Assembly: GCA_021298245.1 (NCBI GenBank)
Contig: JAJTDZ010000002.1
Coordinates: 122,540-186,539, forward strand
Reading direction: 5' to 3'
DNA length: 64,000 bases
DNA from: Algoriphagus sp.
GTDB taxonomy: Bacteria > Bacteroidota > Bacteroidia > Cytophagales > Cyclobacteriaceae
Shown: positions 2,536 to 6,704 of the stretch, one piece after another
Layout of the letters: the number at the start of each line of letters is the position of its first letter
Numbering within the stretch: the first letter of the stretch is position 1
Made by a program: the position numbers and the translations under genes
Notes under the pieces: model-generated
What the model was told of the DNA's origin: nothing
Database searches by the model: none
Seen by the model: only the letters and a program-made list of their open reading frames with translations

Positions 2536-2784
2536 TTAAATGCCATCTTTTAAAAGAAAAAATGCTATAAAAAGTATTCCTCCAATTACCGCCCCAGCTT
2601 TCTTTTTGAGATACTCCTGCTGCAAATCGATCTTTTTATAGAGATAAAAAATATAGCCCTGTACAAAAAGTCCAAAGGTAAAAATGAGGAGTGCAATGGG
2701 GATAGATTTGAAAAAGAACCCCGCAAAAGCAACAGCTAGGGCAAGGAATATTGAATAAGTTTCCCACTTTTTTATTGTGTCCAT
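2536..2784 (-). CDS. Small membrane protein of unknown function (82 aa)
   Basis: Not recognised. The product has two or three hydrophobic stretches: SIFLALAVAFAGFFF at about residues 11-25, a second at about 28-48 that continues from it, and AVIGGILFIAFFLL near the C-terminus. A charged segment (KKIDLQQEYLKKK) separates the second and third. It starts only 5 bases after the stop of the six-cysteine lipoprotein upstream, so the two are almost certainly cotranscribed, and it is the last gene of the pair. A membrane partner or an immunity protein for that lipoprotein is possible but purely contextual. ORF 2636-2836 is a shadow in another frame. Confidence 0.65.
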   Translation of the reverse strand: MDTIKKWETYSIFLALAVAFAGFFFKSIPIALLIFTFGLFVQGYIFYLYKKIDLQQEYLKKKAGAVIGGILFIAFFLLKDGI

Positions 2785-2789
2785 GTTCT

Positions 2790-3428
2790 TTAATTTTCGT
2801 ATTTTTTACAAGTCTTATAAGATTTTGTAGCATCATCTATACATACCAATTCAGATAAATAGACAAATCCTCCACAAGCCAATGCGCCTAGCAGAGTAGG
2901 AGTCAATAAGCCACAAGCGGCTGAAGCTACTAGTGCCGCATTCCTACAGGTTTCAATACCGGTATCAAATTCCTCTTCACAAGCTCCATAAATTCTCAAA
3001 TTTGCTGAATGAACGCTTCTTTTTTGCACTAACTCAGAAATATTTTCTGCTAGTAGCATATCAAGTTCTTCTCGATTCGCTACAAGGAGTTGAGGATATT
3101 TTTCCCTTAATTTTTGACCTAAAATCACCATTTCAAGTAAAGGATGTTCGATTTTAAGGTTAGACCCACTAAGTGTATACCGATCTTTTTCCACCTCTGC
3201 AAAAGAAGAAGCTGATATCACTCGCTGCTGAATTTTTTCAAAATCTTCTTTGGAAATCCTTGAAGCATTCGCCTGGCTCTTTTGTAAGGAATTCATAAAC
3301 TCAATGAATAAGGGGTCTTCAGGTAGCTGATCAACCAAAAGTTCTGCCTGCTTGGGTTGTGGATCTTCCGCAACGCAGCCCAAAAAAAGGCAGGAAAAAG
3401 ACACAAAAAAAAGGGATTTCATTTTCAT
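2790..3428 (-). CDS. Lipoprotein with a C-terminal six-cysteine helical hairpin
   Basis: Exported lipoprotein of 212 residues. The signal peptide ends in the lipobox LFLGC (Cys18). Residues about 20-145 are mostly charged and helical-looking (LVDQLPEDPL, KEDFEKIQQRV) with no domain I recognise. The last 63 residues hold six cysteines at 150, 161, 172, 185, 196 and 207, with spacers of 10, 10, 12, 10 and 10 residues. The middle is small and hydrophobic (CGLLTPTLLGALACGGF). This mirror-symmetric spacing fits an antiparallel helical hairpin cross-linked by three disulfides. From memory the central part resembles the halocin C8-type peptide domain, so a peptide bacteriocin-like role is one possibility. 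It is followed closely by a small membrane protein. A start at Met3 is equally possible. Confidence 0.75.
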   Translation of the reverse strand: MKMKSLFFVSFSCLFLGCVAEDPQPKQAELLVDQLPEDPLFIEFMNSLQKSQANASRISKEDFEKIQQRVISASSFAEVEKDRYTLSGSNLKIEHPLLEMVILGQKLREKYPQLLVANREELDMLLAENISELVQKRSVHSANLRIYGACEEEFDTGIETCRNAALVASAACGLLTPTLLGALACGGFVYLSELVCIDDATKSYKTCKKYEN

Positions 3429-3690
3429 GGATTAAAAAGTGTTTAGAATTAAAAAATTATTTATACTAATTTATAGATTAAATTAAATTTATCAAATATT
3501 TATAGATATTTTTTTAATTAAACTACTACAAAAATTAATCACCCCAGATTAAATTTTAAAAAGCAGCAGTTTTGAATGAAGAAGCCTTTGCCTTCAACCA
3601 AAAAAAATCCCCTACAAATGGTAGGGGATAGCGTGCAATTTTGGAGTTGCAAAAGACCTTCGAGGTTTTAGAAAACTTAAAGGGGAACAA
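3429..3690. other. Very AT-rich intergenic stretch upstream of the six-cysteine lipoprotein
   Basis: Bases about 3440-3550 are almost entirely A and T, far below the surrounding base composition. The gap should contain the promoter of the lipoprotein, but no full TAnnTTTG box stands out. A weak copy of the htpG-side palindrome (GACCTTCGAGGTTTT) lies at 3655-3669. No ORF or RNA gene was seen. Confidence 0.5.
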
Positions 3691-3722: not shown

Positions 3723-5609
3723 TTAAATCATTTCCACGCTGCGCTTCACGAAGGCAGTCAGGTCCTTGCCTGTCAGCAAGCCCTGAGACAATAAAGCCAG
3801 ATCAAAAGCCTGCTTGGCCAACTTCACTTGCTCCTCTTCTCCTTCCGCTTTCAAAATTTTATCCACCAAGGGGTGATTGCCGTTGATGGCTACCTTATAG
3901 CTATCCGGCAAACTACCGTAGAAACTCATCGGCCCCCCACCCGTTTGTGCCATTTCCTTCATTCGGCGCATCCACTCTTCCATGGTGATAGTCACTGGGA
4001 ATTCCTCTGGGCTAAGGCCCTCGATCTCCACGGTATAGGTCTTATTTTGAATGGCTTTTTCAAAAAGCTCTTTCACCGATTTGCTTTGATCTTCTGTCAA
4101 TAAATTGGCATAAGCTGCTTCTTTTTGAATCAATTTTTCAATCACATCCGCATCCACCCGCTTCAGTTGGGTTTTTTCCAACTTCGTTTCCACATGCTGG
4201 ATGAAATGGTTGTCAATGGGGGAGTCCATGACCAAGACATCGTATTCTTTTTTCAAAGCAGAATCGATAAAGCTGTCTTGTTTTTTGACATCGCTGGCAT
4301 AGAGGTAAATCACTTGCTCGTTTTTATCCGTTTGCGTAGCAGCTACCTTTTCTCGGTACTCGTCTAAAGTGTAATATTCGTCCTTGGTGTTTTTGAGAAG
4401 GGTAAACTCTTTGCCCTTTTCATAAAACTTCTCCTCGGAGATCATGCCATACTTCACAAAAAGACCGATGTCATTCCACTTTTCTTCGTAGACTTTTCTG
4501 TCTTTCTTGAAGAGCTCTGAAAGTTTGTCAGCAACCTTTTTGGTGATGTAATTGTTGATTTTCTTCACGTTGCCATCCGCCTGCAAGAAACTTCTCGACA
4601 CGTTGAGCGGAATATCTGGAGAGTCAATCACCCCGTGTAGGAGCATTAAAAACTCTGGAACTATGTCTTTAACTTCATCGGTAATGAAGACTTGACGACT
4701 AAATAATTTGATTTTATTTCGCTGCAACTCAAAATCATTTTTGAGTTTGGGAAAATACAAGACTCCCGTCAAATTGAAAGGATAATCTACATTGAGGTGA
4801 ATCCAAAACAAGGGATCTTCGCCCATGGGATATAGACTCTTGTAAAAAGCCAAATAGTCTTCGTCTTGAAGGTCATTAGGAGATTTGGTCCAAATGGGTG
4901 AAGTGGTATTGATGATGTTGTCCACCTCAATGGATTTCCACTTCTTCTCCCCTTTGTCATCTACTCCATCCTCTACGGATTGGGATTTTGTTCCAAATTT
5001 GATAGGAACGGGCAAAAACTTGCAGTATTTATCCAAGATCCCCTGCAGCTTCCAGTTGTCTAAAAACTCTTCGGAGTCCTCATTGATGAAAAGGATGATT
5101 TCTGTCCCGCGACTTTTTCTTTTGCCTTTTTTAATTTCAAATTCTGTACTGCCGTCACAGGTCCAAATGGCCGGCTCAGCCCCTTCTTGGTAGGATAGCG
5201 TATGGATCTCCACATTCTTGGCAACCATGAAGGCAGAGTAGAATCCTAAACCAAATTTTCCAATGATTTCATTGGCATCCTTGGCATCCTTAAATTTTTC
5301 TACAAATTCGGTTGCCCCAGAAAATGCAATTTGGTTGATGTACTTTTTGATTTCCTCGGCTGTCATACCAAGGCCCTTGTCCGAAATGGTGATGGTTTTC
5401 TTCTTCTCATCAAAAGAAACTTCCACGGTAAGGTCTCCAAGCTCTCCAGCATACTGACCTAATGTCGCCAGCCTCTTGATTTTTTGGGTAGCATCAACTG
5501 CATTGGAAACGAGCTCTCTGAGGAAAATCTCATGGTCGGAATAGAGAAATTTTTTAATTATTGGGAAAATGTTCTCGGTATGAATCGAGATGGTGCCTTT
5601 TTCCTGCAT
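3723..5609 (-). CDS. htpG: Molecular chaperone HtpG (Hsp90)
   Basis: Cytoplasmic ATP-dependent chaperone of the Hsp90 family. The 628-residue product begins MQEKGTISIHTENIFPIIK. It carries the GHKL ATP-binding motifs: FLRELVSNAVDA (Glu and Asn of the N-box), ISDKGLGM (DxGxG) and IGKFGLGFYSAF. The middle domain includes NVSRSFLQ, the region with the catalytic-loop arginine. The C-terminal dimerisation region is present, and the length is normal for Bacteroidota. It is transcribed alone on the minus strand. A 158-base gap separates it from the next gene upstream and contains a TGTCA direct repeat (5685-5697) that could be a stress-control site. A strong hairpin follows the stop codon. Confidence 0.97.
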   Translation of the reverse strand: MQEKGTISIHTENIFPIIKKFLYSDHEIFLRELVSNAVDATQKIKRLATLGQYAGELGDLTVEVSFDEKKKTITISDKGLGMTAEEIKKYINQIAFSGATEFVEKFKDAKDANEIIGKFGLGFYSAFMVAKNVEIHTLSYQEGAEPAIWTCDGSTEFEIKKGKRKSRGTEIILFINEDSEEFLDNWKLQGILDKYCKFLPVPIKFGTKSQSVEDGVDDKGEKKWKSIEVDNIINTTSPIWTKSPNDLQDEDYLAFYKSLYPMGEDPLFWIHLNVDYPFNLTGVLYFPKLKNDFELQRNKIKLFSRQVFITDEVKDIVPEFLMLLHGVIDSPDIPLNVSRSFLQADGNVKKINNYITKKVADKLSELFKKDRKVYEEKWNDIGLFVKYGMISEEKFYEKGKEFTLLKNTKDEYYTLDEYREKVAATQTDKNEQVIYLYASDVKKQDSFIDSALKKEYDVLVMDSPIDNHFIQHVETKLEKTQLKRVDADVIEKLIQKEAAYANLLTEDQSKSVKELFEKAIQNKTYTVEIEGLSPEEFPVTITMEEWMRRMKEMAQTGGGPMSFYGSLPDSYKVAINGNHPLVDKILKAEGEEEQVKLAKQAFDLALLSQGLLTGKDLTAFVKRSVEMI

Positions 5610-5684
5610 GGACGTATATAGGTTTAGTTAAACACAGATGAATTTGCCTATCTAGTAACAAGGGGCATTCCAAGAATAAAAAAG

Positions 5685-5697
5685 TGACAAGATGACA
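5685..5697 (-). promoter_or_regulatory. TGTCA-N3-TGTCA direct repeat upstream of htpG
   Basis: Read on the minus strand, TGTCATCTTGTCA lies about 76 bases before the htpG start. A spaced direct repeat in front of a heat-shock gene suggests a regulator or alternative promoter site. No CIRCE palindrome is present. This is an inference from position only. Confidence 0.3.
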
Positions 5698-5767
5698 GAG
5701 TGCTTGCTTGGACTAGTTCTACCCCATGGGAGTGTTCTAGTACCTTCAATCGCCTGACTAGGGAAAA

Positions 5768-6589
5768 TTAGCAGTACTCAAAATGCAAGGGATCTGGAAA
5801 AGTAAATTGAAATCCCGTTTCTAAAATTTTCCTAGAATCTATGACCCTATCCACCCCATTTTGGAATTGGGCATAGCTTCTAGGGGGGACTATCCCAAAA
5901 CTGGCTGCATTCTGTTCGTAGATTTCTTTCCTCCGAGGATGGTAGGGAGCTACCCCATTGAAAGTTTGATTCCACAATCCCTTTTGAATTATCCATGCAA
6001 TCATCCGAACCGCATCGAGTTGGTGAATGTAATTGACGCGAGCATGGCCCACAACTTCAGATTTTCCGGAAACATAGCTCCCCGGAATTCTACCTGGTCC
6101 CATCAATCCTCCCAAACGAAGGCAGGTGAGTGCGTAGGCCCTCTGCTCCTCCATGAAACCTTCGGCTTGTAAAAGAATGGGGTTCCCAGGGCTTACTCCC
6201 TCCTGCAAACTTTCTTCCGTATACCTCTCTTCCTGAGGATGCTCCGGATAGATCCCTGTACTGGAAATCATTAAGACTTTTTCTATTGGAGAACTGTCAA
6301 TAAGCTTCTTCAAAGACTGGAGTTGAGCCAGGTAGAATTCCCCCTCCCCCGAACGCGTGCGCGCTGGAAGGGTAATGACGAGTACTTCCGAGGCAAAAAG
6401 ACGGTGGTTTTCTTCTCCCTGAGCTTGGGGGGCAAGGGAAAATACCACCGTATCTAATTCCAATTCCATCAATTTGGATTGCTTTTCTTTGCTGGTAGTA
6501 GATCCAATTACCCGCATACCCTCCTTTTTCAAATGGATTCCAAGGGCTAAACCCAGCCAACCGTAACCCAGAATGGACACGCTATGCAT
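5768..6589 (-). CDS. YeeZ-like NAD(P)-binding Rossmann-fold protein
   Basis: Atypical short-chain dehydrogenase/epimerase-like protein (273 aa) of the YeeZ type, whose reaction is unknown. The N-terminus SILGYGWLGLALGIHLKK is a dinucleotide-binding GxGxxG loop. VIGSTTSKEK follows where the cofactor's phosphate or ribose is usually read. ISSTGIYPE is the family's S-T-x-Y active-site region, and LRLGGLMGPGR resembles the epimerase substrate-lid motif. The last gene of a run, it lies 115 bases downstream of the hydroxylase-like gene and has its own predicted promoter at 6657. ORFs 5861-6172 and 6297-6560 are shadows. Confidence 0.75.
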   Translation of the reverse strand: MHSVSILGYGWLGLALGIHLKKEGMRVIGSTTSKEKQSKLMELELDTVVFSLAPQAQGEENHRLFASEVLVITLPARTRSGEGEFYLAQLQSLKKLIDSSPIEKVLMISSTGIYPEHPQEERYTEESLQEGVSPGNPILLQAEGFMEEQRAYALTCLRLGGLMGPGRIPGSYVSGKSEVVGHARVNYIHQLDAVRMIAWIIQKGLWNQTFNGVAPYHPRRKEIYEQNAASFGIVPPRSYAQFQNGVDRVIDSRKILETGFQFTFPDPLHFEYC

Positions 6590-6656
6590 CGTGATTTTGG
6601 TTTAAGGTTATTCCCAAGAATAAATCCAATTGCAGCATGGTCGTTTTTCCTACCCC

Positions 6657-6664
6657 CAAAGGTA
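6657..6664 (-). promoter_or_regulatory. -7 box upstream of the YeeZ-like gene
   Basis: TACCTTTG on the minus strand matches TAnnTTTG exactly. A T-run lies about 17 bases upstream at the -33 position. The leader would be about 60 bases. Confidence 0.4.
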
Positions 6665-6704
6665 AGGACACTATACCTAAAAAAAGCCTCTAAGAAGGAG
6701 GTGT

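Follow-up and report, generated by a model that had tools for sequence, protein, structure and literature searches.

A conserved six-cysteine helical hairpin predicted at the end of an Algoriphagus lipoprotein encoded beside a small membrane protein

The best-supported statement about the gene pair described here is a structural one: a 212-aa lipoprotein of Algoriphagus (hereafter LP) is predicted to end in a helical hairpin with facing cysteines, and is encoded in a two-gene unit with a small membrane protein. The most likely reading of the pair, with a probability of roughly 0.4, is that LP is the precursor of a stapled-hairpin peptide directed against competitors and that its partner is the immunity protein. 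An initial annotation of the DNA stretch that was analysed (the window, 64,000 nucleotides) had proposed a lipoprotein with a mirror-symmetric cysteine hairpin resembling halocin C8. The lipoprotein, the hairpin, the spacing and the nested geometry are supported, and neither of the two outcomes named there as refuting occurred, but the kinship to halocin C8 is not supported; the partner gene, the arginine preceding the domain and the decay of LP are points beyond that account.

The LP gene, defined by its ORF and its homologues, occupies positions 2790..3428 of the window on the minus strand, as do all features listed below. Its product has a lipoprotein-type start, MKMKSLFFVSFSCLFLGC, with a signal peptide and a lipidated Cys18 (3375..3428), and the cysteine is shared by the intact homologues, at C18, C18, C18, C19 and C21. 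This hydrophobic segment and conserved cysteine, read by inspection and with a relaxed Bacteroidota lipobox, support the assignment as a bacterial lipoprotein, which is probably surface-exposed in the outer membrane. The cysteines of LP lie at residues 13 and 18 (lipobox), and then at 150, 161, 172, 185, 196 and 207. Between the two groups lies an N-terminal part, residues 19-144 (2997..3374), which is fast-evolving in the alignment and helical in the AlphaFold2 model, followed by Arg145 (2994..2996), a candidate processing site. The partner gene (2536..2784), recognized as an ORF, encodes an 82-aa protein with about three membrane helices predicted from hydropathy, its start lying 5 nt beyond the stop of LP. 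A terminator-like hairpin downstream of htpG (3607..3629), identified by a consensus match only, lies between htpG and the pair and suggests that LP and its partner form a transcription unit of their own.

The spacers of 10-10-12-10-10 residues that had been reported for the last 63 residues of LP are exact, the codons of C1 to C6 running from 2981 to 2808 (2808..2981). The spacing by itself is not decisive, because, at the DNA level, 66 of 395 genomes belonging to the class contain a bare TGY pattern with the LP spacing, most of the matches being, by eye, repeats or EGF-like tandem arrays. The arrangement in LP is nevertheless beyond chance, being conserved in seven diverged copies. In the alignment that had been proposed as a check, all six cysteines and the identical spacing are kept in copies from two genera: those of the window, G036, G732, G023, A. 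chordae (G707), A. hitonicola (G700) and G1042. The two exceptions are both broken genes, one with an in-frame stop and a C4 to R replacement (G002) and the other with a frameshift just after C4 (A. antarcticus, G704). Identity between the main Algoriphagus copies is 49-71% in the domain and mostly 22-46% in the N-terminal part, the near-identical pair G036/G732 (97% in the domain) excepted; the neighbouring HtpG proteins share 77-93% identity with the window HtpG. The domain evolves under purifying selection, with dN far below a dS that is saturated.

Copies of LP are scattered and often damaged. The domain search listed nine of 76 Algoriphagus genomes, of which eight hold real copies once a chance match in G733 (E 0.008, in a stop-containing frame) is removed; weak profile matches in G150 and G362 were likewise dismissed as chance, lying in unrelated or stop-containing frames. 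The relatives that emerged first all belong to Algoriphagus, and A. chordae, A. hitonicola and A. antarcticus are among the carriers, along with several metagenome-assembled genomes. Five of the Algoriphagus copies are intact (window, G036, G732, G023 and G707), and the other three are broken: that of A. hitonicola has a TAG inside the signal peptide, that of G002 carries its stop, a TAA, in the N-terminal part, and that of A. antarcticus has the frameshift noted above. A ninth copy, in another genus of the same family (G1042), was reached by searching with the partner protein; its full-length identity to LP is 31% (E 6e-24 in a one-to-one BLASTP comparison), and its identity in the domain is 49%. 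The N-terminal part gave no usable match outside the genus, no Pfam, NCBIfam or PHROGs family was assigned to LP, and relatives were not found among the plasmids, phages and viral contigs searched. The genome searches sampled the class, order and family, so that the LP family may extend beyond the matches seen, and incomplete assemblies are among the genomes counted as negative for the gene or for the helper enzymes considered below.

Structure prediction gave the helical hairpin that had been proposed. AlphaFold2, run with a shallow alignment of seven sequences, returned a helical LP with residues 131-145 disordered and with two final helices, at residues 149-175 (helix A, 2904..2984, with C150, C161 and C172) and 179-211 (helix B, 2796..2894, with C185, C196 and C207); the domain folded alone gave the same two helices at a mean pLDDT of 84. 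All six cysteines lie within these helices, and those of each helix fall on one line at the hendecad step, in keeping with the suggestion that each half aligns three cysteines on one face. The helices break at a conserved T-P-T, residues 176-178 (2895..2903), in which P177 is invariant. The turn is this short segment and not the whole of GLLTPTLLGALA, as had been supposed, most of which is predicted to be helical. The register of the model would pair C150 with C207, C161 with C196 and C172 with C185, and the residue numbers of each pair add to 357, as expected of the nested facing geometry C1-C6, C2-C5 and C3-C4. The neighbours on the cysteine face are mostly small (G157, A165, A168, G181, S192, A200 and S203, along with F154, V189 and E211), which fits the requirement of close helix packing. 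The hairpin core is hydrophobic (GRAVY 1.3, with two charged residues in 34), and no charge is present in the hydrophobic tip (residues 164-192 or so); the open end is charged. A sequence search of solved structures and Foldseek searches of the PDB and of viral models returned generic helical hairpins only, with nothing at E below 0.001. Comparable, among known folds, are the mitochondrial CHCH (twin CX9C) proteins, helical hairpins whose regularly stepped cysteines are joined in nested disulfides. They differ in having two rungs and CX9C spacing and in being soluble and eukaryotic, whereas LP has CX10C steps and three cysteines per helix, and matches no Pfam family, CHCH included.

The proposed likeness to halocin C8 was followed with family profiles (TIGR04449, Pfam), BLASTP, and hhalign with shuffle controls, and membership was rejected. 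As in LP, halocin C8 is a hydrophobic, cysteine-rich C-terminal peptide behind an N-terminal part, and the LP core CGLLTPTLLGALACGGFVY aligns in register with CGLLGITIPVAGLSCLGFVE of HalC8 for three cysteines; the hhalign score was reached by none of 200 column shuffles and, with the cysteines fixed, by two of 200. Yet the hhalign probability is 7% over 34 columns, the window protein and four homologues gave no TIGR04449 match at E up to 10, and none of 297 Bacteroidota genomes yielded a match over the TIGR04449 cut-off, while the Haloferax volcanii control was detected. (The halocin C8 query, unlike the other three rows of the alignment, was not taken from a database record; TIGR04449 matches it at E 1e-16.) Halocin C8 is, moreover, an archaeal, Tat-exported product with ten cysteines at other spacings, as against six at 10-10-12-10-10 in a lipoprotein, of which only three align. 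The halocin family is further marked by a C-terminal peptide freed by proteolysis and by immunity conferred by the N-terminal part; the one LP trait seen that bears on this is the conserved arginine ahead of the domain. A point on the side of kinship is that, at two of three haloarchaeal plasmid loci (L021 and L022), a halocin C8-like gene has a 68-aa ORF 19-24 nt downstream of it; that of L021, the one translated, has the look of a two-helix membrane protein, and at the third locus (L020) the following gene is a 693-nt hypothetical. The short core resemblance appears real but far too weak for kinship, and true distant membership of LP in the halocin C8-like family is very improbable. Profile matches at L018 and L019 were chance, in unrelated or stop-containing frames.

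LP and the membrane protein gene are found as a pair in two distinct genomic settings. Wherever the LP frame runs through to its own stop, at seven loci (window, G036, G732, G023, G707, G700 and G1042), the partner start lies -4 to +6 nt from that stop, and across loci the partner product has 82-90 aa and about three hydrophobic helices by hydropathy. In Algoriphagus the pair comes after htpG, and beyond it lie either metK or Rrf2 and cys genes. The pair of G1042 occupies a different site, with an AAA_21 ATPase and a DUF4276 gene just downstream (L084, 9491-11329), a combination that we take as the sign of a variable or defence-like region. The membrane gene also occurs without LP: in G009 an intact copy directly follows htpG (L067, 1456-1755) and resembles an orphan immunity gene, and in G020 a decayed copy is all that is present. 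Six further genomes (G725, G025, G650, G716, G708 and G022; loci L070-L075) carry more distant relatives of the membrane protein, each on its own between SerC-like aminotransferase and marC/RNase H genes; their occurrence at another locus without LP implies that the membrane protein may serve some purpose independent of LP. Several neighbouring ORFs may be recorded. An unrelated small lipoprotein-like ORF stands in the place of LP, before the decayed membrane gene, in G020 (L068, 1092-1496). Beside the pair of G023 (L028) are an ORF for a small secreted, cysteine-containing peptide (5226-5471) and then a gene for a six-bladed beta-propeller-like lipoprotein (5459-6667), and a similar propeller-like gene lies beside the pair of A. 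hitonicola (L023, 4748-6016).

The anti-competitor reading is the likeliest because the unit is patchy and decays often, is paired at unrelated sites, is sometimes represented by the membrane gene alone, and has a plausible release site. Also in its favour are the fixed cysteine spacing across two genera, the predicted two-helix hairpin, the largely small residues flanking the cysteines together with the hydrophobic core, and the stronger conservation of the domain than of the N-terminal part. The release site is an arginine 3-6 residues before C1 in nine of nine copies, in a linker otherwise variable in length and sequence (SQARVNGIC in L081). For this scheme we infer disulfides, cleavage, toxicity and immunity alike: the C-terminal 67 or so residues would fold as a hairpin of two helices, which as many as three nested disulfides would close; the N-terminal part and the disordered linker would serve as carrier; a protease would cut after the conserved arginine at the end of the linker, freeing the stapled hairpin; the hydrophobic tip would insert into the envelope of close competitors; and the co-translated three-helix membrane protein would protect the producer. 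Cleavage at this point would yield a peptide of 67 residues and charge -4, uncharged along its 29 core residues (164-192). The adjacent, co-translated small gene in a patchy, dispensable and decaying unit fits the bacteriocin-immunity class but does not prove membership. A further step, that the pair exemplifies a new Gram-negative class of lipoprotein-borne antibacterial peptides with a three-rung disulfide ladder, cleavage at arginine and a three-helix immunity protein, in a two-gene unit moving within Cyclobacteriaceae-type bacteria, is somewhat less likely.

Two systems are precedents for parts of this peptide-plus-immunity logic. Gallocin A (GllA1/GllA2) and class IIb bacteriocins like it have predicted antiparallel helical hairpins with facing cysteines, an arrangement that the LP model would match, and their operon includes a small immunity gene, as the LP partner may be; gallocin A activity needs its disulfide, with immunity supplied by the third gene of the operon (PMC10100652). 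Gallocin A differs, however, in being a two-peptide, Gram-positive system with one disulfide per peptide, where LP has three potential rungs; no sequence match between them was found, and in place of the double-glycine leader of class IIb (PF10439) LP has a Sec/SPII-type signal and no Pfam match. BcpT of Phocaeicola, a Bacteroidales toxin, is a Bacteroidota lipoprotein, as LP is, and a precursor, as LP would be; its active C-terminal fragment is released by proteolysis, and a small immunity gene, bcpI, lies downstream (PMC9308784). It differs in its 499 aa, with only three cysteines named outside the lipobox region, in an immunity protein that is itself a lipoprotein, and in activation by clostripain-like proteases. 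Clostripain (C11), the family of these activating proteases, was absent from all ten Algoriphagus genomes tested, which counts against the anti-competitor reading.

Other observations weigh against a toxin. No sequence or fold match of LP to any known toxin emerged from family profiles or from sequence and structure searches. The LP domain is conserved and not diversified, whereas many polymorphic toxins are diversified, and a net charge of -4 is unusual for a membrane-active bacteriocin. Also counting against the toxin, DsbB is absent from all seven carriers tested; VKOR is absent from six of the seven, G023 alone having it. The membrane-protein relatives that stand alone tell against it as well. 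Almost as likely as the anti-competitor peptide, although still tentative, is an envelope pair in which the hairpin docks on the membrane protein or on an outer-membrane protein and LP acts in cis as a structural, regulatory or stress component and not as a toxin. Such a role would suit the constant coupling of LP to the membrane protein, the purifying selection on the domain and the occurrence of membrane-protein relatives on their own; it sits less easily with the membrane gene of G009, which lacks an LP, and with the dispensability of LP, evident from its presence in only eight of 76 Algoriphagus genomes, three copies being broken.

The scarcity of oxidizing enzymes bears also on a redox or metal-binding hairpin, in which the six cysteines would stay reduced and coordinate Cu(I), Zn or some other ligand in the space between the helices, or would serve as a redox relay. 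Because the carriers lack DsbB and mostly lack VKOR, enzymatic disulfide formation is not assured, and one face of each helix is lined by cysteines. But the domain has no CXXC or CXXXC pairs, and neither His nor Met appears on its cysteine face; with 11 residues from rung to rung, only two thiols are available per level, and the locus (htpG, metK or Rrf2/cys genes) contains no metal-handling genes. A reduced, ligand-binding hairpin is improbable, and the anti-competitor peptide is still preferred.

Taken at that strength, the pair of LP and membrane protein looks like an undescribed exported peptide with its protector. Whatever its role, three nested disulfides at the 11-residue (hendecad) step would give a helical hairpin a clean natural ladder and make it a useful scaffold. 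The pair also raises the question of how disulfides would be made in Algoriphagus without DsbB or, for the most part, VKOR. To our knowledge few peptide bacteriocins are known in Bacteroidota and, if LP is a weapon, it would add to this phylum a class of peptides borne on surface lipoproteins.
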